Shown here: positions 1,781 to 60,239 of the stretch, one piece after another
Position numbering within the stretch: position 1 is the first letter of the stretch
Layout of the letters: the number at the start of each line of letters is the position of its first letter
Assembly: GCA_036172665.1 (NCBI GenBank)
Contig: CM069871.1
Span: 62,246,713-62,310,712, forward strand
Origin: Prosopocoilus inquinatus
Lineage: Eukaryota > Arthropoda > Insecta > Coleoptera > Lucanidae
Length of the DNA stretch: 64,000 nt
Direction: 5' to 3'
Made by a program: the position numbers and the translations under genes
The notes under the pieces: generated by a model
What the model saw: only the letters and a program-made list of their open reading frames with translations
What the model was told of the DNA's origin: nothing
Database searches by the model: none

Positions 1781-3990
1781 CTGAAAAATTTAACGCTGTC
1801 CTATGACTTAAAACACGTAATTAAGAACCATACCCGTTCAACAATCAACACTAGTACGTGTATCGATAACATATTTACCAATGTCAGGAAATATAATCGA
1901 TGCAGATATGTCTGACCATAGCGCATTATTCTTCAATTATGAAGTTACATCGAAATTAAATAAAAAATGCATCCGGAAAAGAGTTATTACTAAGAAAAAG
2001 ATGGATCGTTTTCTTACTTTGCTCTCAGAGGAATCATGGGATGATGTATATACAGGTGATAAACAAGTACGAATCCTTTTCCAAATTTTAATGGTGTGCT
2101 TGGAATCTGCTTTTCCAATTATTTCCGTAAAACAGTCCACAAAACAGCAAACCTGTATTGCGTCAGAAGAACTATTACAAGTAAAATCTACACTAGGCCT
2201 AATTGAGGACGCTTATAAGTTATATGGTGGAAATGAATTAAAGACCATCCACAACAACTACAGAAACTTTTACCTTGGTTATGCAAGAGAAGAAAGGAGG
2301 CAAAGTAATCTTTATAAGATCCAGTTTTCCAATTGTAAACAAAAAAACCTTATGGGACATCATAAAACAAGAAACCTCATCAGTTTCAGAAGTTGGAAAC
2401 AACCTATCTGGGGAGGAGTTGACCGATTTTGTCTGTGGGATTGCTGAGAACATTTTAAAAGAATTGCCACCAAGCAGAGAGGAACCGGAATCACTTTTAA
2501 AGAAGGTCTCCGGTTGCAGCCGCTCATGTTTCTTAAACCCAGTCACTAGACAAGAAATTAAATCAATTATACAAAGATTAAAACCAAAACCTTCAACAGA
2601 CATATATGGAGTAAGCATAACACTCTTTAAGAATGCTTCGGAATTTTTAACAGAACCTTTAGCTGATATAATCAATGCCGGTTTTCAGGAAGGTACGGTT
2701 CCTGATGGAATGAAGGTTGCTAAAGTCACAACAGTTTTCAAGAAAGGAGACCGCTGTTCGACAAACAATTACCGACCCATCTCTGTATTGCCTGTAACGT
2801 CTAAAATATTTGAAAATGCATTATATACTCGCCTAAGAGCATTTTTTATTAAGAATAAAATGTTAGACGAATCTCAATTTGGCTTTAAAATACTGAAGCC
2901 GCGGTACTGTCCCTGCTCAACTACATTTGGGAAACTTTTGAAGAACGTTGCGACTTTGACGCTATAATCTTAACAAAAGCATTTGACTGTATGCATCACA
3001 AGATACTACTTACGAAGCTAGAGCATTACGGGATTAGAAGTACCACTCTCAAATTAATTGAGTCCTATTTTACTAAAAGAAGACAGTCTGTTTAATTAAA
3101 TGGGCAGCTCAGTAAGGTACAAAATATTTCTAACGGAATAGCACAAGACTCGCTCATTGGGCCGCTTCTGTTCATCATCTTTACTAACGACCTCCCGGAA
3201 CAATTAACGGCACATACAGTCATGTTCACCGCCGATGCAACAATATGTTGTAAAGATACCAGTACTGAATATTTGCTGATAAGCATGAATAAAGCAAACA
3301 AATTGGCCACCGAATGGTTCCGTACGAATAAGCTGGAGCCAAATGAAGAAAAGAAAGTGCAAATCTCTTTCACGACCAAAAGAAGCATAACCACTGTTAA
3401 TACTAACTCCACTAAATTATTAGGGATTACTCTGGACACTCGATTGACTTGGAGGACCCATATACAAGAAATTCTGAACAAGCTTGCTTCTATGACGTAT
3501 GCCATCCGCCGAATTAAGCAGGTAATAAACAAGGAAGCAGCTATAACAACCTATTTCGCCCTGTTTCGTTCCCGTGTGTGCTATGGAATTCAAATTTGGA
3601 GCGAGTCGGCACACGCTGATAATATACTCGTTAGCCAAAAAAACGCTATCCGTATAATTGAGGGTGTTCCTAGGCGAATCCACTGCAAACCATTATTCCC
3701 CAAGCTGAAAATAATGACTATGATTTCTGCATATCTCTATCGCTAGCTTCAAAGAGCACGAAGAGAAGCGGACGATCTTCAGAAAAGGCGAGATATGATG
3801 GACACCGTCCTAAGGTCCGGACACTCGATTCACATCCCCCGTCGAAGAATTAACACAACGGGTGCTCAGTGTAGACATATTTACTTATATAACAAGCTCC
3901 CCAAGCCTCGGACGGAAATGACGCTGAAATAATTCAAATTTACAATCAAATACTTTTCCTTAGATAATCCATTTTATACAGTCAATGAAT
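1781..3990 (+). pseudogene. Degraded non-LTR retrotransposon (endonuclease end and reverse transcriptase)
   Basis: This is a 5'-truncated LINE of the jockey/CR1 type, broken into several frames. At 1781-1880 the end of an apurinic-like endonuclease domain reads with the pattern TRSTINTSTCIDNIFTN; a frame change near 1880 leads to the SDHSALFF motif. A second frame change near 2335 leads to the connector and the start of the reverse transcriptase (NYRPISVLPVTSKIFE around 2767-2815), and a third near 2895 leads to motif A (LTKAFDCMHHKLL-like, 2970-3010). An in-frame stop lies near 3093. Motif B is GIAQDSLIGP, and the catalytic box usually read FADD is FTAD at about 3223-3236, so the first aspartate is lost. 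The thumb/tail (LLGITLDTRLTW, about 3418-3453) continues to 3746 and in broken form to about 3990 (LYNKLP-like). It cannot be active. The family call is by motif only. Confidence 0.85.
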
Positions 3991-8800: not shown

Positions 8801-9738
8801 GCGGTTGGTTTTCCTCGTTGGTTGCTCCCCTTGCGACTTTACCTACTTGCGGCTAGTTACGCCGCAAACAATTGAAATCGCCTTCGACATCGTGTTCTTT
8901 ACTTCCGCAAGGATCTATAGCACCGTGTCTTACAATGCCGAACCCTACGGGTGTCAGATAACAAGATTCGTCGGACATACAGGTCGGACTTTTACGATAT
9001 CTTGCTACTGTTGACTTTTTTTCTCCCATGAACAACCCTTCTAGGATTTTAAATTCTCGTTTATGTATAGCACGACCGGGGTTTCAAAGGTTTGGAATTT
9101 TGTAATTACTATTATCCCCCTTTTGGACCTTTGGTAACCCGTATATTTAATTTGTTTTATCTTTAACTTTAATTAAGTTTTATGACACCCTTTTTCCGGC
9201 CTTCCACTTGGTGATTTTAACTTTTGCTTCTGCGCTTCCTCCTTGGTGCATTTATCTCTAAATTTAGTCACTTGTTTATTTCAATTTTTGCGCTTGTTTT
9301 ATGTATATCTGAATTTGGTGTAAATAAAGCCTACTAGAACTTGAATGTAGCCGCGATTTCTTAATTTTCCCGTGTTTTCCTAAAAAAAATGAGTGGCACC
9401 CTTGTATTAATTTTTCGCGTTGGTTTGATTGGAATCCCGCATATAAAGAGGCGAAGTCAGTCTAAGTTTTTCTTACATTTAACCTCAACAACAATAAACA
9501 ACAATAAATATGGCGGGAAAAACCGTGAAACGACTCGGGTCGACAATCTCCAAGGAACTTATGTAGACAAGTAGGAAATCCACGTGTTTTCTATCTCTTT
9601 CCAAAGAACTCGGAAATAGGCTTCGCAATGAAAGCGGATCTATTGTCAATCAGAAAAGAAAAAACCGTAGTAACATGCTTGCGCTTTATGGTTTTCACAT
9701 ACTTCAGATCACACAAATCTTACAACCAATTGGCATGA
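5848..9738. other. Non-coding stretch with GC-rich islands
   Basis: Apart from the repeat at 6737-6915 nothing is assignable. GC-richer islands at about 6190-6500, 7890-8000 and 8500-9010 stand out from the A+T-rich background and could be conserved non-coding elements or old retroelement leader sequence. A 96-codon plus-strand frame (8724-9014) overlaps a minus-strand frame and matches no family I know. Confidence 0.4.
6737..6915 (+). repeat. Dispersed repeat, copy 1 (pair with 11056-11225)
   Basis: The sequence begins TGTAACAGACGCGAGTTAT and ends near TTCTTGTTCGGTAGCTAGTTT. A diverged copy on the same strand at 11056-11225 has TGTAACGGACGCGGGTTAT and TTCTTGTTCAGTAGCTAGTTT in the same order and spacing. 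Similarity stops after the last shared word. The class is unknown; the TG start could suggest an LTR fragment, but the other hallmarks are missing. Confidence 0.6.
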
Positions 9739-9900
9739 GATGTTTGCAAAACACATCAAAAGACACATAGAGCTCAATTCATTCCAGGTCAAGCTGTTTA
9801 GACGAATCTTGCAGCTGTAGTTTACACGGTTTCTCAAAATTAACGAAAATTAGATGTTAGAAAAATTTTGTGCAAATCGTTTTTGATTGCAGTGAGAACC

Positions 9901-9965
9901 TCGAGCAGCCTCTGGACAGCTGTTTCAGCCCTGCTTGGGGCTTCTTCAGCAGAAACGTAGCTCGA
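9901..9965 (-). ncRNA. Type I hammerhead ribozyme motif, copy 1
   Basis: Read on the minus strand the parts are in order: an outer helix TCGAGC, a proximal stem I strand GTTTCTG, the core CTGAAGA, stem II AGCCC with loop CAAGCA and GGGCT, the core GAA, a short stem III within ACAGCTGT, the cleavage triplet GTC, then CAGAGGC, which pairs with GTTTCTG over 7 bp (two G-U), and GCTCGA, which closes the outer helix. All invariant hammerhead core positions (CUGANGA, GAAA, UH) are present. Cleavage is predicted between 9915 and 9914. The outer stem extends to 9877-9990. Confidence 0.85.
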
Positions 9966-10212
9966 CATTCCCACTGCAGACCAAAAACGACTTGCCCAAT
10001 TTATTCGCAATTGCGATGTAAGAAAGATGAACATATAAAATAGCGACATCTTACTATCGCTTTTTGACCTAACATTGCAGTAGGATAGACAAACTGAAGC
10101 GGGATTTGCTCCTAATGAGTCCCCCATGCAAGGCGGCCATGCTTGCTGTCAAAGCATAATGAAAGATTTTAGAAAAATTTTTTGCAAATCGTTTTTGATT
10201 GCAGTGAGAACC

Positions 10213-10277
10213 TCGAGCAGCCTCTGGACAGCTGTTTCAGCCCTGCTTGGGGCTTCTTCAGCAGAAACGTAGCTCGA
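10213..10277 (-). ncRNA. Type I hammerhead ribozyme motif, copy 2
   Basis: The core, stem II, stem III and stem I are identical to copy 1. The predicted cleavage is between 10227 and 10226, exactly 312 bases from the site in copy 1. The long outer stem is cut on one side because the monomer is joined to an inverted copy just after 10279. Confidence 0.8.
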
Positions 10278-10354
10278 CATTTTATATGTTCATCTTTCTT
10301 ACATCGCAATTGCGAATAAATTGGGCAAGTCGTTTTTGGTCTGCAGTGGGAATG

Positions 10355-10419
10355 TCGAGCTACGTTTCTGCTGAAGAAGCCCCAAGCAGGGCTGAAACAG
10401 CTGTCCAGAGACTGCTCGA
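10355..10419 (+). ncRNA. Type I hammerhead ribozyme motif, copy 3
   Basis: The plus-strand copy has the same core. The 3' strand of stem I is CAGAGAC instead of CAGAGGC, which turns one G-U pair with GTTTCTG into A-U and keeps all 7 pairs. Cleavage is predicted after 10405. The outer stem runs from about 10330 to 10443 (TCGTTTTTG and CAAAAACGA). Confidence 0.85.
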
Positions 10420-10765
10420 GGTTCTCACTGCAATCAAAAACGATTTGCACAAAATTTTTCTAAAATCTTTCATTATGCTTTGACAGCAAGCATGGCCGCC
10501 TTGCATGGGGGACTCATTAGGAGCAAATCCCGCTTCAGTTTGTCTATCCTACTGCAATGTTAGGTCAAAAAGCGATAGTAAGATGTCGCTATTTTATATG
10601 AAAATTAGATGCTTGAAAAACACATCAAATGACACGTGGAGCTCAATTCATGCCCATCAAACTGTTTAGACGTATCTTATAGCGCCAGTTTACGGGGGTT
10701 CTCAAAATTAGAAAAAAATTAGATGTTCAAAAAACACATCAAATGACACGTAGAGCTCAATTCTC

Positions 10766-18324: not shown

Positions 18325-18762
18325 GTATAATAATCTGTTTCGTATTAAATCTTTCTCTTACTTACTATTTTTTGTTTCATATGCTAATTTGGTCATTTTT
18401 GTACAAGAAAAACCCATTTCAATTTTCATTTTAAAAAGTCAATTTCATCTTTTGTTTGCGAATGCTAACAACATTTATTAACCTTATCTGTACATGAACC
18501 CCGTACAGTGTCGGTTCTTGTTGAAAATTTGTCACAGTAAAATAATTTTAGGCCTGAAATTAAATTCATTTTATTTTGAAAAACGAATTTGTATGCCAGA
18601 ACCCAGCAATGTGCACAGAGTTATAATATAAATAATAATGAGCTGATTTATGGCAGGCTAGTTCAATATCCTAATAGTTATGTTGAGACGATTGCTAACG
18701 AAAGAAAAATTTTACTTTAATAAAATCATTGAAGTTTGTTCTTGTCCGATGAAAATTGTAAG

Positions 18763-18930
18763 TACAAAGTTTTTTTAATCTCAAACCGGACAGAAAAATG
18801 AAGAGAACACACTCAACGTTTCGCTATAGATTTATAGCTTCGTCTCCTGACGAAGCTATAAATCTGTAGCGAAACGTTGAGTGTATTCTCTTCATTTTTC
18901 TGTCCGGTTTGAGATTAAAAAAACTTTGTA
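18763..18930. repeat. Near-perfect palindrome with 82-bp arms
   Basis: Arms 18763-18844 and 18849-18930 are reverse complements with two mismatches around a 4-base centre (TCCT). The arm contains GCGAAACGTTGAGTGT followed by TTCATTTTTCTGTCCGG and GAGATTAAAAAAACTTT. A single diverged copy of the same arm occurs in the repeat at about 39203-39272, so this is an inverted dimer of a dispersed repeat end. Confidence 0.9.
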
Positions 18931-19809
18931 TTTAATAAAATCAGAAAGCAAGGGCAATATTTTGATTTTTTACCAAGTTAGCATTCATCTTCATCATTCT
19001 TTAAACTGTTATCACGCCAGAGTTCTCTTTTCTATGAAAAACCGAATCCGAAGTGGCCTGGAAGTGAATAAACCCCTTTAGTTTTTAAACCGGTCGACGG
19101 GAAACACAATTCCTTTGACTGATGAAACTTCCCCGCGATAGATCAAGACTCGCCCGAGGAGAACTCCCGAAAAGTATTTAACAAATGTCTTGTCATTTGA
19201 GTTTCGACAGGTTGATTGATTAAGTTCTCGCCTGTGTGGGAGAATTATTCCGTCAGACTCCCTGATCGGAAGGTGTTCCTGTACGCCGACGTTCACATCA
19301 CCCACCATTATCAGCCAATTAGGAGCAGCCCTATTTGCCCTAATTGATGTTAATGGGGCCGTAAATTGCAGCTTATAATTTATTAATAATCAATTTGAAA
19401 TTGTTCGAATTCGTATAATTAATGTAGCTGGTTTATGGCTAGTACAATGCCATTGAATTTCAAAGCTGGAGGTGCAATTAAGTTAAGCTCTCGTGATCAA
19501 ACAAAATCAAATAAAATTGTATAGAGTGAAATCGAATGTATACGTGTAAAAGTGAGATAGCAGCGCGAAAAGGATAAGCGGGGGAATAATCGAACCAGGC
19601 TAATATTCATACATAATAAAAAAAGAAATTATATTTGTACCGCTGGTCCAAATTATGTTCTGTTTGTTAAGTTAATTGTTAATAATGTCAATTTCATTAG
19701 TTCATAAATTAATAAAGCATATTTGATACATTTATGAAAATAAATTTCTTGTGGCAATTACGTACTCATTCACTGAAATTTTTTTACCGCTTTATCTGCC
19801 CTATAATAA
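18931..19809. other. Non-coding stretch with possible conserved block
   Basis: The block 19080-19400 has mixed composition and a 76-codon minus-strand frame with no known domain. It has the look of a conserved non-coding block, which is inference only. Confidence 0.3.
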
Positions 19810-25789: not shown

Positions 25790-26120
25790 CCCCCATGCAA
25801 GGCGGCCATGCTTGCTGTCAAAACAAGCATGGCCGCCTTGCATGGGGGACTCATTAGGAGCAAATCCCGCTTCAATTTGTCTATCCTACTGCAATGTTAG
25901 GTCAAAAAGCGATAGTAAGATGTCGCTATTTTATATGTTCATCATTCTTACATCGCATTTGCGAATAAATTGGGCAAGTCGTTTTTGGTCTGCAGTGGGA
26001 ATGTCGAGCTACGTTTCTGCTGAAGAAGCCCCAAGCAGGGCTGAAACAGCTGTCCAGAGGCTGCTCGAGGTTCTCACTGCAATCAAAAACGATTTGCACA
26101 AAATTTTTCGAAAATCTTTT
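25790..26120 (+). mobile_element. Hammerhead-ribozyme retroelement, locus 2
   Basis: The element begins with a short minus-oriented piece (25790-25823) joined to an almost complete plus-oriented monomer (25824 to about 26120). The junction makes a perfect 25-bp inverted repeat (25790-25814 and 25824-25848, loop CTGTCAAAA). No clear 12-bp target duplication is visible here, so one end may have been lost or rearranged. Confidence 0.75.
26004..26068 (+). ncRNA. Type I hammerhead ribozyme motif, copy 4
   Basis: The core, stem II (AGCCC/GGGCT, loop CAAGCA), stem III and 7-bp stem I (GTTTCTG/CAGAGGC) are intact. Cleavage is predicted after 26054. The outer stem spans about 25979-26092. Confidence 0.85.
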
Positions 26121-30116: not shown

Positions 30117-30168
30117 TATAGTGTTAAGAAAAATGTTGTGCAAATCGTTTTTGATTGCAGTGAAAACC

Positions 30169-30233
30169 TCGAGCAGCCACTGGACAGCTGTTTCAGCCCT
30201 GCTTGGGGCTTCTTCAGCAGAGACGTAGCTCGA
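30169..30233 (-). ncRNA. Hammerhead ribozyme motif, copy 5 (one stem I mismatch)
   Basis: The core, stem II and stem III are intact. Stem I strands are GTCTCTG and CAGTGGC, giving a U-U mismatch at the fourth pair but a C-G in place of a U-G at the fifth. Cleavage is predicted between 30183 and 30182. Activity may be reduced. Confidence 0.75.
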
Positions 30234-30440
30234 CATTCCCACCGCAGACCAAAAACGACTTGCCCAATTTATTCGCAATTGCGATGTAAGAATGATGAAC
30301 AGATAAAATAGCGACATCTTATTATCGCTTTTTGACCTAACATTGCAGTAGGATAGACAAATTGAAGCGGGATTTGCTCCTAATAAGTCCCCCATGCAAG
30401 GCGGCCATGCTTGCTGTCAAAGCATAATGCGGTGGGAATG

Positions 30441-30505
30441 TCGAGCTACGTCTCTGCTGAAGAAGCCCCAAGCAGGGCTGAAACAGCTGTCCAGAGGCTG
30501 CTCGA
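30441..30505 (+). ncRNA. Type I hammerhead ribozyme motif, copy 6
   Basis: All parts are present. Stem I is GTCTCTG/CAGAGGC with 7 pairs, and the C-G at the fifth pair is a strengthening change relative to copies 1-4. Cleavage is predicted after 30491. Confidence 0.85.
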
Positions 30506-30672
30506 GGTTTTCACTGCAATCAAAAACGATTTGCACAAAATTTTTCTAAAAACTTTCATTATGCTTTGACAGCAAGCATGGCCGCCTTGCATGGGGGACT
30601 TATTAGGAGCAAATCCCGCTTCAATTTGTCTGTCCTACTGCAAAAAGCGATAGTAAGATGTCGCTATTTTAT

Positions 30673-31014
30673 CTATAGTGTTAAGGTTTGGAAAATCCTA
30701 TGTATTGAGTTTGCATCAAATTTATTTCCGATCGTGCAATGATTAACTGTGTGGCATGTGAACGGCACATCTACTTGTATTGCGTTATCGTCGTCGAAGT
30801 AAAATTTGATTTTTGTATCACAAATGGTCTCACGCCTAAATCTAACTTTGTGGTGCAGTTCACAGACAGTTTTTTTCTGCATACATCTTTGAATACACCG
30901 GCCGTAAAATATCCTACAAATTTCGTTGTTCGGCATTTCTTTTATTGTCTTAAGTAAACAATATCGCCCGGAGTGTCTAATTTTAACGTAAATTGCACAT
31001 TCTTTCGCAAACAT
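30673..31014 (-). CDS. Cysteine-rich ORF, possible last exon of a cystine-knot-type secreted protein
   Basis: This is a 113-codon open frame with nine cysteines (residues 6, 19, 33, 40, 44, 51, 65, 87, 93), a basic middle (KVRFRRE at 56-62) and a C-terminal VDVPFTC. Paired cysteines, the VxVxxxC end and the CELHHKVRFRRE stretch recall the general layout of invertebrate cystine-knot hormones and cytokines (PTTH/Trunk or IL-17 type), but spacing does not match any family well, so the family is not assigned. There is no signal peptide, and a TGA directly precedes the first ATG, so an upstream exon at higher coordinates would be needed. The stop codon lies in the 12-bp target repeat of the hammerhead element; the uninterrupted site also ends the frame (TAA), so the protein end was not changed by the insertion. 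Confidence 0.35.
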   Translation of the reverse strand: MFAKECAIYVKIRHSGRYCLLKTIKEMPNNEICRIFYGRCIQRCMQKKTVCELHHKVRFRRETICDTKIKFYFDDDNAIQVDVPFTCHTVNHCTIGNKFDANSIHRIFQTLTL

Positions 31015-31129: not shown

Positions 31130-31480
31130 GTGCCTGATTTGGGTGACTTAATTATGATATCAGGTGCTTACTTTCTCGTGATAGGTTATTGAAAAGGTCT
31201 AGTAGTGTTTAAATAAAACATTAAAATTAAAATCATTATCCGGAATTTTGTATAAAATTAAAATTAAAGTGATCATCATCATTTTATACGAAATTCTGGA
31301 TAAAGATTTTAATTTTAATGTTTTATTTAACAAAAAATATTTACTGCAATGTTAGGTCAAAAAGCGATAGTAAGATGTCGCTATTTTATATGTTTTATTT
31401 AATATTACTGGACCTTTCTAAGAACGTACTACTAGAAAATAAATACCTAGTATCATAATTAAGTCATCCAAATCAGGTAC
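31130..31480. mobile_element. Foldback (MITE-like) element with an inserted hammerhead-element fragment
   Basis: The ends GTGCCTGATTTGG (31130-31142) and its near reverse complement at 31468-31480 begin long imperfect inverted repeats (GACTTAATTATGAT on both arms), which continue inward to AAATAAAACATTAAAATTAAAATC and the matching arm at about 31300-31328. A fragment of the hammerhead monomer is inserted in the right arm. Confidence 0.7.
31331..31390 (+). mobile_element. Short hammerhead-element fragment, locus 4 (no ribozyme)
   Basis: Positions 31343-31390 match the end of the hammerhead monomer (GCAATGTTAGGTCAAAAAGC ... GTCGCTATTTTATA). The insert is flanked by a perfect 12-bp direct repeat TGTTTTATTTAA (31319-31330 and 31391-31402). 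The right terminus is the same as at loci 1 and 3. Confidence 0.75.
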
Positions 31481-35590: not shown

Positions 35591-36688
35591 TATACCGGGT
35601 GTCCCACGCCATGTGCTCACCTTTCTAGAATCTTTATTTATTAATCGATTAACCTGAATTTTGGAGACGATAAACTAAATAAAAAATGGAATTTTTTGAC
35701 ATACTGATAGTCGTCATAGGACTTCCGGTTTCGTCGGAAGTGATATCAACTTTCTTATTTTAAATGGAACACCCTATATATTTTTACATATTTAAAATCT
35801 ACGGATCATTACGAGTCCGGATACGTATAACTGTTAATTTTGGTTTCCATGACAACGAAAAGAAAGTTTTTTTATTTTTCAATCTAGAAAGCTATGAATC
35901 GCATTTTTTCGATCTAATGCGATCAAGTATTTCGAAAAAATCACTCCTTTGATGGTATTTTGATTTTTAACATTTTTACAGTATTTGAAATTTTCATTAG
36001 CTCTTAACTCATTTTTTTCGATAGAACCTCATATGTTTCTTAGCTTAATTCAACAGAACATTTTTTTCTGAGTACGCTGATACCAAATACGTCATATTTT
36101 CTTTGAAAGTCATTTGAAATAAAGGGAGTGTAAAATTTCAATAAGACATGCTCTGTTTTATGTAAATTAATTTCAAAGAAAATATGACGTATTTGGTATC
36201 AGCGTATTCAGAGAAAAATGTTCAGTTGAACTAAGCTAAAAAACATATGAGGTTCTATCGAAAAAAATGAGTTAAGAGCTAATGAAAATTTCAAATACTG
36301 TAAAAATGTTAAAAATCAAAATACCATCAAAGGAGTGATTTTTTCGAAATACTTGATCGCATTAGATCGAAAAAATGCGATTCATAGCTTTCTAGATTGA
36401 AAAATAAAAAAACCTTCTTTTCGTTGTCATGGAAACCAAAATTAACAATTATACGTATTCGGACTCGTAATGATCCGTAGATTTTAAATATGTAAAAATA
36501 TATAGGGTGTTCCATTTAAAATAAGAAAGTTGATATCACTTCCGGCGAAACCGGAAGTCATATGACAACTATCAGTATGTAGAAAGATTCCATTTTTTGT
36601 TTAGTTTATCGTCTCCAAAATTCAGGTTCATCGATTAATAAATAAAGATTCTAGAAGGGTGAGCACATGGCGTGAGACTCCCGGTATA
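35591..36688. mobile_element. Large foldback element with about 525-bp arms
   Basis: The arms 35591 to about 36115 and about 36164 to 36688 are reverse complements at high identity, with a central spacer of about 48 bp. Termini are TATACCGGGTGTCCCACGCC and, on the other side, its near reverse complement ending CCCGGTATA. Each arm carries the same 62-codon open frame in opposite directions (35764-35952 plus, 36327-36515 minus; starts MEHPIYFYIF), with one residue different (Thr or Ile at position 23). That identity follows from the inverted repeat and is not by itself evidence of coding. Confidence 0.9.
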
Positions 36689-48032: not shown

Positions 48033-48104
48033 GCCGTGATCGTCTAGTGGTTAGGACCCTACGTTGTGGCCGTAGTAACCCAGGTTCGAATCCTGATCAC
48101 GGCA
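48033..48104 (+). tRNA. tRNA-His (GTG), copy 1
   Basis: It is 72 nt, with acceptor stem GCCGTGA/TCACGGC, discriminator A, anticodon loop TTGTGGC with GTG at 48066-48068, A box around TCTAGTGG and B box GGTTCGAATCC. A T-run lies at about 48135. It differs from copy 2 at two positions: A for C in the T loop and A for G at 48096, which makes a C-A mismatch at the base of the T stem. It may still be functional or may be a decaying copy. Confidence 0.9.
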
Positions 48105-48289: not shown

Positions 48290-48361
48290 GCCGTGATCGT
48301 CTAGTGGTTAGGACCCTACGTTGTGGCCGTAGTAACCCAGGTTCGACTCCTGGTCACGGCA
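48290..48361 (+). tRNA. tRNA-His (GTG), copy 2
   Basis: It is 72 nt with fully paired acceptor, anticodon and T stems (CCAGG/CCTGG), anticodon GTG at 48323-48325, B box GGTTCGACTCC, and a T-run terminator at about 48391-48396. It is likely the intact gene of the pair. It lies 257 bp downstream of copy 1 in a tandem duplication. Confidence 0.95.
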
Positions 48362-53305: not shown

Positions 53306-54291
53306 TTATACAGGGTGCTGCATTTTGAAACGCAGCATAGGAAATCCCATGTTAATTTAAAAGTGCTCGAATATTGGCCTCTCTAATTATTTTACATCAA
53401 AATTCCATATAGGGTTTTTAAAGTGCTTTTCAACCCAAATCTCTCTCTGAAGTTTAAGAATTTTTCATTTTCTCAGTCTCAAGATATTTGAAAAAGATTA
53501 GTATCGAAATTCAATTTATACCAATTATTTACGATTTTATAGCAAATGTCACCTCGAAACAAGTCTCATAAATTCCAAAGGGAATTATATAACATAATAA
53601 TTGCATGAGGATCAGAGAAATCACGACATATTCGAATTACAAAGCCACACATTTTCAGAGATCTGAATATTGTGATCAATATGGGAAACAGATTCAAATT
53701 TGTAGTTATATTTAATTCATAGGTCATCAATGGTTTGCACACGAAAAATGTAATTACTGTAGGTATGGATTATGGGACATTTACCCGTACTAAATGTTAT
53801 CGCCTTGTACTTAGATATATTAATTACTACAAAATTAACAAAATTAGCAGTACACCAGGATTGAAAAGAGTGAAGGTCTGAAGGTCATCTTGCAATAAAG
53901 AACGGTCCTGAATCATTGAAACACACCGAAAAAGTTTTACGTTCATCCGCAAACAATGGAAATTATAATTTTTCAATATTGTTGCAACCTCGTTAATAAA
54001 AATGAGGATCAAAATTGGGCCAAAATAAGAACCTTGTGGCACGCCAGAAGTCACTCTTACGGAGTCGGAAAGTTCAATGTTTTGACAATTTGGACTATAT
54101 TAGTGTGATAACTCTTTAACCATATTAAAAGTTTGCCGCGGACACCGGACAATTGAATAAACTTTCTTAATTAAGAGATTATGTTCCACACGATCATAAG
54201 CTTTTTTGAAATCCGTGTATATCGTGTCCAATTGAAAATCATCATCATGAGATTTCCTATGTTGCGTTTCAAAATGCATTACCCTGTATAA
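53306..54291. mobile_element. TIR-bounded unit enclosing a LINE reverse-transcriptase fragment
   Basis: Inverted repeats of 41 bp, 53306-53346 and 54251-54291, match at 38 of 41 positions (start TTATACAGGGT). The interior holds an antisense reverse-transcriptase fragment. Whether this is a true DNA element or a rearranged repeat is open. Confidence 0.6.
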
Positions 54292-54390
54292 GCTGCACGT
54301 GTTTCATTTAGTATTTTCAAATGAGTCACATTTCGACATAATTTCTAGTTTACTATAATATCTTAATTAAATAAAATGTACTGAAAAAAT
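53845..54390 (-). pseudogene. Reverse-transcriptase fragment, repeat unit A1
   Basis: On the minus strand it reads FQLDTIYTDFKKAYDRVEHN (motif A with catalytic Asp), a broken segment, then MTSGVPQGSYFGPILILIFI (motif B); the catalytic FADD box is degraded to LRMN-V ahead of KLFR. The unit is 546 bp and is repeated almost unchanged, with the same length, at 55125-55670. Confidence 0.75.
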
Positions 54391-55127
54391 TCCTAACCAC
54401 TTTTTCTATTTGTTAAGTATTAGCGACTAACATTCAGTTGTCGGAAGAGGAAAATTCAATAAATATTGACTAAATGATATTAGGTGGTTAACACAAACCA
54501 AATAAACAGCTGAGTAAACATATTAAATTACAAGAACAAAATAAATAAGTTGAATAAAAATTATAGAAGAACATGAGTTTGTGAAATAAAGAAAGTGAAA
54601 TAAATAAATTAAAGTAAATCCTCAAAATGTCCTTCACTGTTTTCAAAACACACATTCGTTCTTAATCCTATGTGTTGTTTAGCGTGTCGAACATGAATTC
54701 GTGAAATACTTTTGTAAGAATCTAATATTCGCCTTCTTAGTTCCTCCTTATTATTTATCTTAATGCTAATCACTGTCTCGATGTCCAAAATACCTACTTT
54801 ATCCTGTTTAGATTATGGATGGTGGTCCCGATATAACTTGCCAAACTTCATCTGGTCAAAGCGAGTGACAATATTTAGTGCCATTTTTGGACTTATTTAA
54901 AAAAAAAATAAAGATAGTGAAGTGTTGAGAGCCACTGAGTGCTAAAGAAATTTTTAAATAATTACATTGTTGTAGAAAATATCTTTCAAATTTATCATAA
55001 AAATATTTGTTTTTGGCTGCCAATGTGTTTGTAGAAGGCACTATTCTGTAATATCTAAATATTTTTAGTATAATTAGTATTCACTTTGTCTTTTAACTCA
55101 ACAGTGCGAGTCAAAATTAAAAACTAG
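54389..55127 (-). mobile_element. Repeat unit B1, possible transposase fragment
   Basis: It is nearly identical to 58917-59653. On the minus strand 54609-54812 encodes a 67-codon fragment ending in NKEELRRRILDSYKSISRIH and, just before the stop, VCFENSEGHFEDLL. This resembles the C-terminal end of mariner-like DDE transposases of insects (R-x-C...G-x-H-x-E-x-L-L-stop). A second minus-strand frame at 54856-55041 (LAAKNKYFYDKFERYFLQQC) is also conserved between copies. Confidence 0.5.
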
Positions 55128-55670
55128 CAGTACACCAGGATTAAAAAGAGTGAAGTTCTGAAGGTCATCGTGCAATAAAGAACGGTCCTGAACCGTTGAA
55201 ACATACCGGAAAAGTTTAAGTTTATCCGCACGCAGTAGAAATTTACAATTTTTCAATATTGTTGCAACATCGTTAATAAAAATGAGGATCAAAATTGGGC
55301 CAAGATAAGAACCTTGTGGCACGCCAGAAGTCACTCTTACGGAGTCGGAAAGTTCAATGTTTTGACAATTTGGACTATATTAGTGAGATAACTCTTTAAC
55401 CATATTATAAGTTTGCCGCGGACACCGGACAATTGATGGAACTTTCTTAATTAAGAGATTATGTTGCACACGATCAAAAGCTTTTTTGAAATCCGTATAT
55501 ATCGTGTCCAATTGAAAACCATCATCATGAGATTTCCTATGTTGCGTTTCAAAATGCATTACCCTGTATAAGCTGCACGTGTTTCATTTAGTATTTTCAA
55601 ATGAGTCACATTTTGACATAATTTCTAGTTTACTATAATATCTTAATTAAATAAAGTGTACTGAAAAAAT
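55125..55670 (-). pseudogene. Reverse-transcriptase fragment, repeat unit A2
   Basis: This is the second copy of unit A. Motif B is GVPQGSYLGPILILIFIND and the catalytic box reads RADK-LKLFR, keeping one Asp. The joint with unit B1 falls in a shared TAGCAGTACACC. The right TIR of the 53306 unit is repeated at 55531-55571. Confidence 0.75.
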
Positions 55671-58204
55671 AACGATAAAAATCTAGATTCTTACGACAAT
55701 TTTTTCATAAAAGATTTTTTCCTTATCTATGTCATTCATGGTCGTCCTCACAATATTCAATGTCACTTCCTCTTGAAATGAGTGCCTTAAGAGCGTTATT
55801 GAGAAAAGAACTTGAATCTTAAAGTGTTGTGTTAAATTTTCTTAACCTTTTTGAAGTCCCTCCAGAAATCTATATTACACGTATTTAATATTTAAATGAA
55901 ACTTTCTTTTTCTGGGCAGAAACAATCAAAATCGTTAAATCGAAAAGGAACCAAGTTATTCCGAAGTAACTCAAGAGTAACTAAACATAAAAAAAAAACG
56001 GCAAGCCAGGCTCCAAATTACTGCATTCTCGAACGGATGCCTCTTATGATAGTTTTGTTCATCAAATTCGAATGATATTATTTTCACTGTCTCACCAGAA
56101 CTAAAGAGCTTTTCTTTTCTGAATTTTTGAAAAATGAGTTATTGGCGATTTACACTTAAATAATTTAAAATAATTGCAAAATGTGGCCGTAAACTTGACA
56201 GAGTATGCTTGAAAGGATACGAGCTTTTAACTTAATAAAATAATAGCAGTAATAGGGAAATCTGAAAGCGCTCTATGTGAGAATTCAGGCTCCTATAATT
56301 GTTATTTTTATAATTGGGTACACTTCATTTAATTAAGGTACTTTATTAAATCAGAACTCCTATCAGAACATGACTCATCGGAAAACACATATTACACATA
56401 TGCAGCTGTAAATTTATGTAATAAAAGAATTAGTCAGCTTGCGATGAGATCAAGGGCATTATGTTAAAAAAAAAACAAGCATGCTTATGCAATGCTTTGC
56501 GGAACGTAAAATATAGTTGGTGAGTCCAGTGTAACAGAAGAAATAATTATGTAAGGGCTCCTGATTCTTACAAGCAAACCTGGGCCTACATTCGCACAAC
56601 GGTTGTTACCTTAAAATGAGTCATCTGGATTTTTTAAGACCAATGCTTAATGCAAAGCCCACCTAGACTGGAAAGTAGGTCAATCAAATTATATAAATAG
56701 GTAGGCTTTGCGGAATTCGTCGAGAGAGTTGTCAAGGTGCACGAACTCCTGTCTTCTAGAAAAGTACCTTTTCAGTTCCTAATGTAATTTAGCTTCTTGA
56801 CACGCCTCTCAATCGTCCTCGTAGAGAAGTTTTCAAAATTCTAATTTTTTTTCAATCAACAATTCTCCTAATTTATTATAATTTAAATACAATGTACTAA
56901 AGATGCATCCACGATCGGCGAGGGTGAGCTTAAATAAAATAGAACCGTTGTTGCTTAAAATATTTAGCATCTAACAAAGGTTTTTAGATTTGACTGATTT
57001 TTGTTAATGTTCTCTTCTTTCTTTCATATTCTAGTTTCAATTTTATGTTAAAGATTCCTCAAAGATTGCTGAAAAATTCCATTGTAATCGAAATGGCCTG
57101 TCAAATTGTTCTTTTTTTAATTTCTTATATTACAGTTAAAACCTTAAAGTCCCTATAATGCAACAGTGACTATTTGGCAATATTATTTTTAGAGTTATCG
57201 TTCTAGCAGAAATAGTAACAATTTGTAGTCGTAACGGTGTTCGCCATAACTTATGGTGTAATGTTGGGAAAACAAACTTCGTTCTGCGAAAACAATTGTC
57301 ACACAATTCCTCCTGAGAAATTCGCACTCACCTGCTGCAATATCAGTAACAAGTTTCGCAGTTGGAAGCGGTTTTCGCGGAGGGCGCAACACATGTTACA
57401 TAAATTCAAGCGGGGGGCAGAACGGCGGCGCGGGAGATAAATCAAACGTGGGCGGAAAACGCGCGCGCGGAAAAAGCTCATGTATATTTAAAATTCGATA
57501 AATTCTAAATTATCGCGCGCGCGAATAACAAATTTCCGTAGGTGACAATAAATTCGCGGATATTGCGAACGCGCGCGCGACAAATAAATTCCGCTGCGGT
57601 ACGTACGCGTTTTTAATTTCATAAAGACCCTTTGTTGGTCCCGAAAGTCCGGGACAATCAACTGTTTGATCAGGTGGTGGCTATAATTTGAGCGAATTGT
57701 TGAAATTTTCGACGGGATTTTAAAACGTTACCGCACAACTGGAAACGAGGGTATGTAACGGTAACACGTTTTGCTGCCGACCATACCTTTCTACTTATTT
57801 GCATATTTAGGACAAAATCAATTTATATTCTGCGTTTTTTTTAAACGAGGTCCTTTTAAATTACCCTTTGTCAAGTAGGAAAAAAAAAATTGGTCCAATT
57901 TCTGCAATAAATATTTACAACGAGAAATTTTTGATTGCAGGTAAGACAGGTTCTATTTTGTCAGTTAATTTTTCATTCAGTATCATTTTTGATACAATTT
58001 TTAAATTGTTTAATAGAACCATAGCTCAAAGTAACAAAAAAATGTAATGAGTAAAGTGTAAAACGGCCTAGAGACATATGAAGTCATGCAAAAGTAGAAA
58101 TAGTTCAAGATTACAAAAATTCGATTTAAAATGAAAGATTTTAAATTTATGAGAAACTTCAGACAATTCAAAAAATGCTCTAGTTTTTAAAATTTCCCAT
58201 TTTC
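55671..58204. other. Non-coding stretch with a CpG-rich island
   Basis: Within 57400-57610 there are three long alternating CG runs (about 57461, 57513 and 57571) in otherwise A+T-rich DNA. No gene is recognised. Confidence 0.4.
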
Positions 58205-58288
58205 TATACCTATATATTTTTTAAATCAAAACACCTTGTAATACCTGTATATAACAAGGTGTTTTGATTTAAAAAATATATAGGTATA
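58205..58288. repeat. Perfect 35-bp inverted repeat (hairpin)
   Basis: Arms 58205-58239 and 58254-58288 are exact reverse complements around a 14-base loop. It abuts the left end of the foldback element at 58287. Confidence 0.9.
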
Positions 58289-60239
58289 TATACCGGCTGT
58301 TTCAAATTGGGTGTGCACTGAAGGGATATCCAAAACCGTAAGAGATACAAATATGGTTAAATGGAAGAAAAGTTGCACGAATCAATGCCTAATTTGTATC
58401 CATCGAGAGAATGATTTTTTTCTTATTTCTTCTTGAGATATTAATAAAAATGTAAAAAAAATCGATTTTCTTTTTCTCTCTGTATCTCTTTTATTATACT
58501 TAATTTTGAAATTCTAATTTAGCTTTCTACAGGCACTTTTTGATTCTGCTTGGAATAGGAGTAATAGAATTGAAGTCAAACGTTTCGTCTTTTCAGGACC
58601 ATCATCAGTTTCTATTTTTTAAATACAGCTTATGTCTTTTTATTATTCTCTTCGATGGTATTTTTTCTCCTGATTGTAATGATATATCACACTTAATAGT
58701 TGATATTAATTTGAAGCTTAAATAATTCAGATTCTATATGAAAATTTTTAATACATAATTTCAAATTTTTGGTTCATTTTCTTATCTTTTTATTACTCTA
58801 GTCGATAGCATTTTTTCTGGTGATTTCAGTAATACTTAATACCTTTTTTCAAGCAAAGTTAGAATATGACAAAAAAAGCTGACAGTTTTGTAATGTTTTT
58901 CTTAATAAGTAAATTTATTCCTAACCACTTTTTCTATTTGTTAAGTATTAGCGACTAACATTCAGTTGGAAAATTCAATAAATATTGACTAAATGATATT
59001 AGGTGGTTAACACAAACCAAATAAACAGCTGAGTAAACATATTAAATTACAAGAACAAAATAAATAAGTTGAATAAAAATTATAGAAGAACATGAGTTTG
59101 TGAAATAAAGAAAGTGAAATAAATAAATTAAAGTAAATCCTCAAAATGTCCTTCACTGTTTTCAAAACACACATTCGTTCTTAATCCTATGTGTTGTTTA
59201 GCGTGTCGAACATGAATTCGTGAAATACTTTTGTAAGAATCTAATATTCGCCTTCTTAGTTCCTCCTTATTATTTATCTTAATGCTAATCACTGTCTCGA
59301 TGTCCAAAATACCTACTTTATCCTGTTTAGATTATGGATGGTGGTCCCAATATAACTTGCCAACACTTCAACGGATCAAAACGAGTGGCAATATTTAGTG
59401 CCATTTTTGGACTTAACCATATTTAAAAAAAAAATAAAGATAATGAAGTGTTGAGAGCCACTGAGTGCTAAAGAAATTTTTAAATAATTACATTGTTGTA
59501 GAAAATATCTTTCAAATTTATCACAAAAATATTTGTTTTTGGCTGCCAATGTCTTTGTAAAAGGCACTATTCTGTAATATCTAAATATTTTTAGTATAAT
59601 TAGTATTCACTTTGTCTTTTAACTCTACAGTGCGAGTCAAAATTAAAAACTAGTCTTTCTCATTCCTATACCAATATATATGTATATATATATAATCTAA
59701 CAAGTTATATTAGAACCAATAGATATTTGTTGGTAAAAATTAATTTTCGCAAGTGCAGTGCATTATTAAAATAACGGTACAGAAAAACTTTAAATAGTTT
59801 ATTATAATTTACACTATAGCTAAGAAAGTGAACTAAAAATTTGAAATTATGTATTAAATAAAATTTTCATATAAAAATCTGTATTATTTAAGCTTCAGAT
59901 TAATATCAACTATTAAGTGTGATATATCATCGTAGTCAGGAGAAAAAATGCTATCGAATAGAACAATAAAAAGACATAAGTTGTATTTAAAAAATCGAAA
60001 CTAATGGTGATCGTGGAAAGACGAAACGTTTGACTTCAATTCTATTACTCCTATTCGAAGCAGAATCAAAAAGTGCCTGTAGAAAGCTAAATTAGAATTT
60101 CAAAATTATGTATAATAAAAAAGATACAAAGAGAAGAAGAAAATCGATTATTTTACATGTTTATTAATATCGCAAGAAGAAATAAGAAAAAAATCATTCT
60201 CTCGATGGATACGAATTGATTTGAAACACCCGGTATATA
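58287..60239. mobile_element. Foldback element containing repeat unit B2
   Basis: The ends TATATACCGG-C-TGTTTCAAAT and the near reverse complement ATTTGAAACACCCGGTATATA begin long inverted arms: 58287 to about 58792 and about 59830 to 60239, with shared blocks such as GAAGTCAAACGTTTCGTC, TTTCTACAGGCACTTTTTGA and ATATCACACTTAATAGTTGA. The 740-bp unit B2 sits between the arms. Confidence 0.8.
58917..59653 (-). mobile_element. Repeat unit B2 (copy of 54389-55127)
   Basis: Nearly identical to B1, apart from a 9-10 base deletion after TTCAGTTG and small indels. The minus-strand transposase-tail fragment is at 59128-59331 and the second frame at 59376-59567. Confidence 0.8.

Follow-up and report, generated by a model that had tools for sequence, protein, structure and literature searches.

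The window, i.e., the whole stretch of DNA that was analyzed (64,000 nt; positions 62,246,713 to 62,310,712 of contig CM069871.1, assembly GCA_036172665.1, Prosopocoilus inquinatus), contains a repeated element with a 312-nt unit (plus-strand 9915-10226) whose RNA corresponds to the minus strand. The unit has a GC content of 43.3%, and a blastn search of the window with it gave matches at four loci and, at E 1e-3, none elsewhere, not even in the reverse-transcriptase region at 1821-3746. A preliminary description of the sequence had counted three loci in addition to the first, and these were found at 25790-26119, 30129-30673 and 31331-31389. It had also presented the first locus as head-to-tail 312-bp monomers. 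This holds for 1.36 units (9857..10281), but the remainder (10279-10599) is a third copy that is inverted and stands head-to-head to the others. The plan of locus 1 is accordingly 1.36 units head-to-tail followed by 1.03 units in inverted orientation; locus 3 (30.1 kb) is built likewise, and locus 2 (25.8 kb) differs in plan from both. Locus 1 is the longest insertion (743 bp; 9857-10599) and the only one in which two ribozyme cores lie side by side in the same orientation, 312 nt apart. According to the ORF list, no frame of at least 110 aa lies inside loci 1 or 3; two stop-to-stop frames of 125 and 114 aa, outside the set covered by the domain scan, overlap locus 2. Viral contigs were scanned twice for exact patterns, with 0 matches each time. 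The features of the four loci are listed below, where sites A and B denote the two places in the unit at which insertion ends recur.

9845..9856, no strand: left 12-bp target duplication of locus 1, GAAAATTAGATG; exact flank match
9857..10281, minus strand: locus 1, arm 1; 425 nt, 1.36 units head-to-tail, left end at site B
9915..9949, minus strand: locus 1, hammerhead core 1; predicted cut 9915/9914
10227..10261, minus strand: locus 1, hammerhead core 2; predicted cut 10227/10226, 312 nt from the core 1 cut
10279..10599, plus strand: locus 1, arm 2; 321 nt or one lap and a further 9 nt, in the opposite orientation to arm 1, with site A at the right end
10371..10405, plus strand: locus 1, hammerhead core 3, in the inverted arm
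10600..10611, no strand: right 12-bp target duplication of locus 1, GAAAATTAGATG; exact flank match
10645..10763, no strand: empty site of locus 1 by paralogy; joined flanks align through the junction, 82.5% over 120 columns
25790..25825, minus strand: locus 2, stub; 36 nt, inverted, forms a near-palindromic turn
25813..26119, plus strand: locus 2, arm; 307 nt, about one lap
26020..26054, plus strand: locus 2, hammerhead core
30117..30128, no strand: left 12-bp target duplication of locus 3, TATAGTGTTAAG; exact flank match
30129..30429, minus strand: locus 3, arm 1; 301 nt, close to one lap, with site B at the left end
30183-30217, minus strand: locus 3, hammerhead core of arm 1, stem I weakened
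30428..30673, plus strand: locus 3, arm 2; 246 nt over 258 unit positions, inverted, right end at site A
30457-30491, plus strand: locus 3, hammerhead core of arm 2
30674..30685, no strand: right 12-bp target duplication of locus 3, TATAGTGTTAAG; exact flank match
31130-31229: empty site of locus F by paralogy, in the opposite arm of an inverted repeat of the host; joined flanks align through the junction
31318-31330 and 31390-31402: 13-bp matching flanks of locus F; exact
31331..31389, plus strand: locus F; insertion of 59 nt, made up of 11 A/T-rich nt at the left and 48 nt of the element up to site A

Judged from its sequence, the motif at locus 1 fits the definition of a type I hammerhead, i.e., a CUGANGA/GAA/UH core and three helices, of which stem I is open. 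Read from minus-strand positions 9949 and 10261, the series is CTGAAGA, AGCCC, CAAGCA, GGGCT, GAA, ACAGCTGT and C, and the two starts, like the predicted cut sites, are exactly 312 nt apart, as had been claimed. All six 35-nt cores in the window are identical to one another. The 5-bp stem II, the 7 contiguous bp of stem I and the long outer stem of the preliminary description were likewise recovered at locus 1 (fold z -8.7). Stem III is an 8-nt palindrome, ACAGCUGU, and the Rfam consensus stem III has the same form. A strict descriptor (core; stem II, 4 bp or more; short stem III; stem I, 5 bp or more) matched five times in the window and not once in 150 dinucleotide shuffles; the sixth core, starting at 30217 on the minus strand, was missed at stem I.

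The Rfam type I covariance model, proposed at the outset as a check on the ribozyme, matched in register and over its full length, with every RF00163 (Hammerhead_1) score below the gathering score of 34. In a short-query scan that covered three of the six copies, 9909-9955 on the minus strand scored 23.8 bits (E 4e-4; 101-base query), 26014-26060 on the plus strand scored the same 23.8 bits, and 30177-30223 on the minus strand scored 20.1 bits (E 0.0068). No hammerhead was listed in a whole-window Rfam scan to E 1, and an 851-base scan listed only Hammerhead_HH9 (E 0.89-2.4) and no RF00163, so that the RF00163 matches are seen only with short queries and laxer filters. Plant-type miRNA families that Rfam placed at the inverted arms were all under their gathering scores and were dismissed as a product of the hairpin shape. 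Folding, the other check proposed, gave the long outer stem; the pairing preferred by the program, which models neither the ribozyme core nor loop-loop contacts, was a closed non-hammerhead one, better by 6 kcal/mol (-62.5 vs. -56.5). As a circle, the unit folds into a strongly paired structure (-111.0 kcal/mol vs. -75.9 in shuffles; z -6.3).

Exact matching flanks of 12, 12 and 13 bp bound three of the four loci, and no match of at least 12 bp occurred among random flank pairs (up to 4000). No target duplication was found at locus 2, even in a wider search. Since 1 to 5 of the duplicated letters are shared with the element end, the real duplications could be a little shorter than stated, and each insertion end is uncertain by 1-5 nt. 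Locus 1 sits in a host tandem repeat (9735-10763; units of ~115 bp), the next copy of which is its empty site. Empty-site paralogues of locus 2 or locus 3 were not found in the window.

Elsewhere in the window, inverted repeats also occur. A large foldback at 35591-36688 (538-nt arms, 95% complementary, 22 nt apart) had AT-rich flank matches only and no clear target duplication; none was found at a near-perfect palindrome at 18759-18934 (86-nt arms, 97% complementary, 4 nt apart), and a check for target duplications at four inverted repeats other than those of the element showed nothing clear. Two tRNA-His (GTG) genes (48033-48104 and 48290-48361) lie in a 257-bp tandem duplication, and 53840-59653 holds several long direct-repeat families (97-100 and 81-98% identity, with a spacing of 1280 and ~4520 bp). 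The region at 1821-3746 is likely a decayed non-LTR retrotransposon.

With unit positions numbered along the plus strand, locus 1 spans positions 255 to 679 in ascending order (425 nt) and, after the turn, 439 to 119 in descending order (321 nt); its arms overlap by 3 nt at the turn (10279-10281). Locus 3 likewise ascends from 259 to 559 (301 nt) and then descends from 376 to 119 (258 positions, with an 11-nt internal gap in arm 2), the arms overlapping by 2 nt. In locus 2, the 36-nt stub is joined to an arm that runs from 554 down to 248 (307 nt), its right end lying 7-11 nt beyond the B ends of loci 1 and 3, and locus F runs from 168 down to ~121. The same two ends thus recur: the A end lies at unit position 116-121 in three insertions, namely at loci 1, 3 and F, whereas the B end lies at 255 in locus 1 and at 259 in locus 3. 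In numbering that starts at the 5′ end of the cleaved monomer, site B is nt 54-58 (loci 1 and 3) and site A is nt 192-194 at loci 1 and 3 and 192-197 at locus F; both differ from the ribozyme cut. All outer ends of loci 1 and 3 are RNA-3′-side, which is what priming from two ends predicts for both ends, and therefore counts in its favor.

Statistics on ends and arms were based on the three duplication-flanked insertions and five long arms. The long arms cover 425, 321, 307, 301 and 258 unit positions, and three of the five fall within 11 nt of 312 (P 0.0025 for at least three, under a uniform 100-450 nt null in a test chosen post hoc). A circular template would explain one-lap lengths, since an enzyme that had gone round once would be back at its starting point, although five arms are few. 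None of the six cores is interrupted at the predicted cut; therefore, the template was either ligated there, as a circle or multimer would be, or never cut. Two candidate start signals proved weak. In loci 1 and 3, both start points are located in the two largest loops predicted for the circle (P 0.0087), but 38 of 78 A+T-rich positions are in those loops, so that A+T-richness explains much of the placement, and the loops in the locus 2 fold are shorter than those of loci 1 and 3. A 7-mer, ATCTTTC, adjoins both start sites, but its site A copy is altered in loci 2 and 3.

The unit varies at 20 positions, four of them within the locus 2 turn. At six (40, 61, 120, 180, 203 and 294), the four arms of loci 1 and 3 fall into two pairs, and at all six the arms group by locus and at none by side, so that a single template probably gave rise to both arms of an insertion. 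Within locus 3, the arms have since diverged from each other at positions 140, 172, 265 and 309 and by the 11-nt gap.

The explanation that we consider reasonably probable is target-primed reverse transcription from two ends, with a ligated and probably circular retrozyme RNA as the template and perhaps a Penelope-like enzyme as the catalyst. The unit, the hammerhead motif, the duplications, the empty sites, the inverted arms, the common end points and the agreement of arms by locus are observed; self-cleavage, circularity and the identity of the enzyme are parts of the model that we infer. In this model, the retrozyme RNA would cut itself by means of its type I hammerhead and then be ligated into a circle. 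A reverse transcriptase supplied by another element would cut the target with a stagger of ~12 nt, and copying of the RNA would begin internally, at sites A and B, from both cut ends. Each cDNA would cross the ligated ribozyme junction, often continuing for about one lap, and the two cDNAs would be joined through a 2-3-nt overlap to leave a head-to-head insertion within a target duplication. The leading candidate for the source of the reverse transcriptase would be a Penelope-like element. Such an enzyme was not found among the 10 scanned of the 29 window ORFs of at least 110 aa, and the element itself has no ORF for a reverse transcriptase and GIY-YIG endonuclease, its maximum length being 743 bp vs. 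the 838-842 aa of the rotifer Penelope ORFs quoted in PMC3846280. Locus 2, with its near-palindromic turn and no target duplication, likely reflects self-priming instead. For loci 1 and 3, snap-back self-priming was dismissed, since the unit positions joined at their turns are 72 and 183 nt apart.

An L1-like LINE could have produced similar insertions by twin priming on a multimeric linear retrozyme transcript, the cut ends priming at two points of the RNA and the cDNAs then joining. Twin priming has already been described for L1 (PMC2912911), and the window has disrupted reverse-transcriptase ORFs at 1821-3746, whose RVT_1 scores of 21.2 and 24.6 bits do not reach the Pfam cut-off of 29.6. 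We nevertheless regard this as unlikely: a poly(A) or simple tail is absent at both insertion ends, the unit has no match at E 1e-3 to that reverse-transcriptase region or elsewhere in the window, and a linear multimer would not predict recurrent internal ends or one-lap arms.

Two further explanations were weighed. In one, a foldback composite whose ends are fixed would transpose at the DNA level with the hammerhead as its passenger, and loci 1, 3 and F would have arisen from it by internal deletion; the end points of loci 1 and 3 are indeed equal and in the same order, and a single central deletion of locus 1 could yield the shorter arms of locus 3. By eye, however, there is no terminal inverted repeat between the two ends, and copying of a composite would group the arms by side, whereas they group by locus at six of six sites. 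Gene conversion between arms could mimic that grouping, but the arms of locus 3 now differ at four shared positions and by the 11-nt gap, and we hold a foldback origin to be very improbable. The other explanation, later rearrangement of ordinary head-to-tail retrozyme insertions by DNA inversion or unequal exchange, agrees with the publication of animal retrozymes as tandem repeats (PMC7229834), but at two loci the target duplications enclose the head-to-head unit in its entirety; therefore, the unit most likely entered as one, and we give rearrangement hardly any credence. Returning to two-ended copying, a more specific claim, which we put forward tentatively, is that the scars record the copying of a ribozyme-made RNA circle from two fixed internal starts at one staggered cut, usually for one lap. 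If true, this would be direct genomic evidence of the circle as a transposition template and would indicate a Penelope-like enzyme as the mover of animal retrozymes.

Among known systems, L1 twin priming is described in PMC2912911: 639 of 2068 human- and chimp-specific insertions were 5′-inverted, the 5′ junction of ~70% of these showed microhomology of 2-5 bp, and duplications of 10-17 bp are quoted for inverted insertions from one assay. Two cDNAs from two target ends, microhomology at the turn and a target duplication are shared by our model; in contrast to L1, for which the 3′ terminus of a linear mRNA is the priming point of one end, no tail is present here, and the arms overlap over most of the 312-nt unit, unlike those of L1 twin-primed insertions (PMC2912911).

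Penelope-like elements resemble the element in having type I hammerheads in the family, head-to-head copies and short duplications. Rotifer copies are described in PMC3846280 as often head-to-head, with 8-10-bp duplications in the quoted cases, and the authors favor self-priming on an antisense template, which fits locus 2 better than loci 1 and 3. According to PMC11167929, a purified Penelope-like enzyme cut and extended both target strands in vitro and initiated internally at two RNA sites, and the insertion end points found here fit such a two-site start with both strands primed. Penelope-like hammerheads are minimal variants in the account of PMC7761336, which sets them apart from the present element, and Penelope-like elements encode a reverse transcriptase and an endonuclease, for either of which the element is too short.

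Plant LTR retrozymes, as presented in PMC4918200 and PMC7761336, are non-autonomous, carry hammerheads and form circular RNA; the first two traits are shared, and a circle is proposed here. They are unlike the element in their type III hammerhead, LTRs, primer-binding site and 4-bp duplications.

The element is best read as a non-autonomous, non-coding, animal-type non-LTR retrozyme with a 312-nt unit, a membership that its structure supports. Animal non-LTR retrozymes, as characterized in PMC7229834, have a unit of 170-400 nt, a GC content below 45%, no LTR, a type I hammerhead and, if target duplications are present, duplications of more than 4 bp; here, the corresponding observations are 312 nt, 43.3%, no LTR, a type I motif and 12, 12 and 13 bp. 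The invertebrate stem III of two pairs and a tetraloop cap is also the same. The preliminary assignment to metazoan retrozymes with a 312-nt unit is partly supported, by the hammerhead type, the form of stem III, the GC content and the duplications, but it had missed the inverted far ends and recurrent internal ends, a more informative feature than the head-to-tail repeat. Animal retrozymes may be mobilized by LINEs or Penelope-like elements (PMC7229834), and their repeats are presented in a review (PMC7761336) as having no conserved motif from which the partner element could be deduced; which element moves them, and whether the RNA circle serves as template, is a question that insertion scars could address. 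The main text of Cervera and de la Pena (2020; PMC7229834) nowhere uses the terms "inverted," "twin" or "antisense," and no report of head-to-head retrozyme insertions was found in the open-licence literature, judged by titles and abstract openings. The published animal elements form tandem repeats from dimers to long multimers (PMC7229834), whereas two of the long insertions in the window have a head-to-head plan and end at two recurrent points inside the unit, and the combination of two fixed starts, head-to-head arms and one-lap lengths would be a clue that can be counted in any retrozyme-bearing genome.
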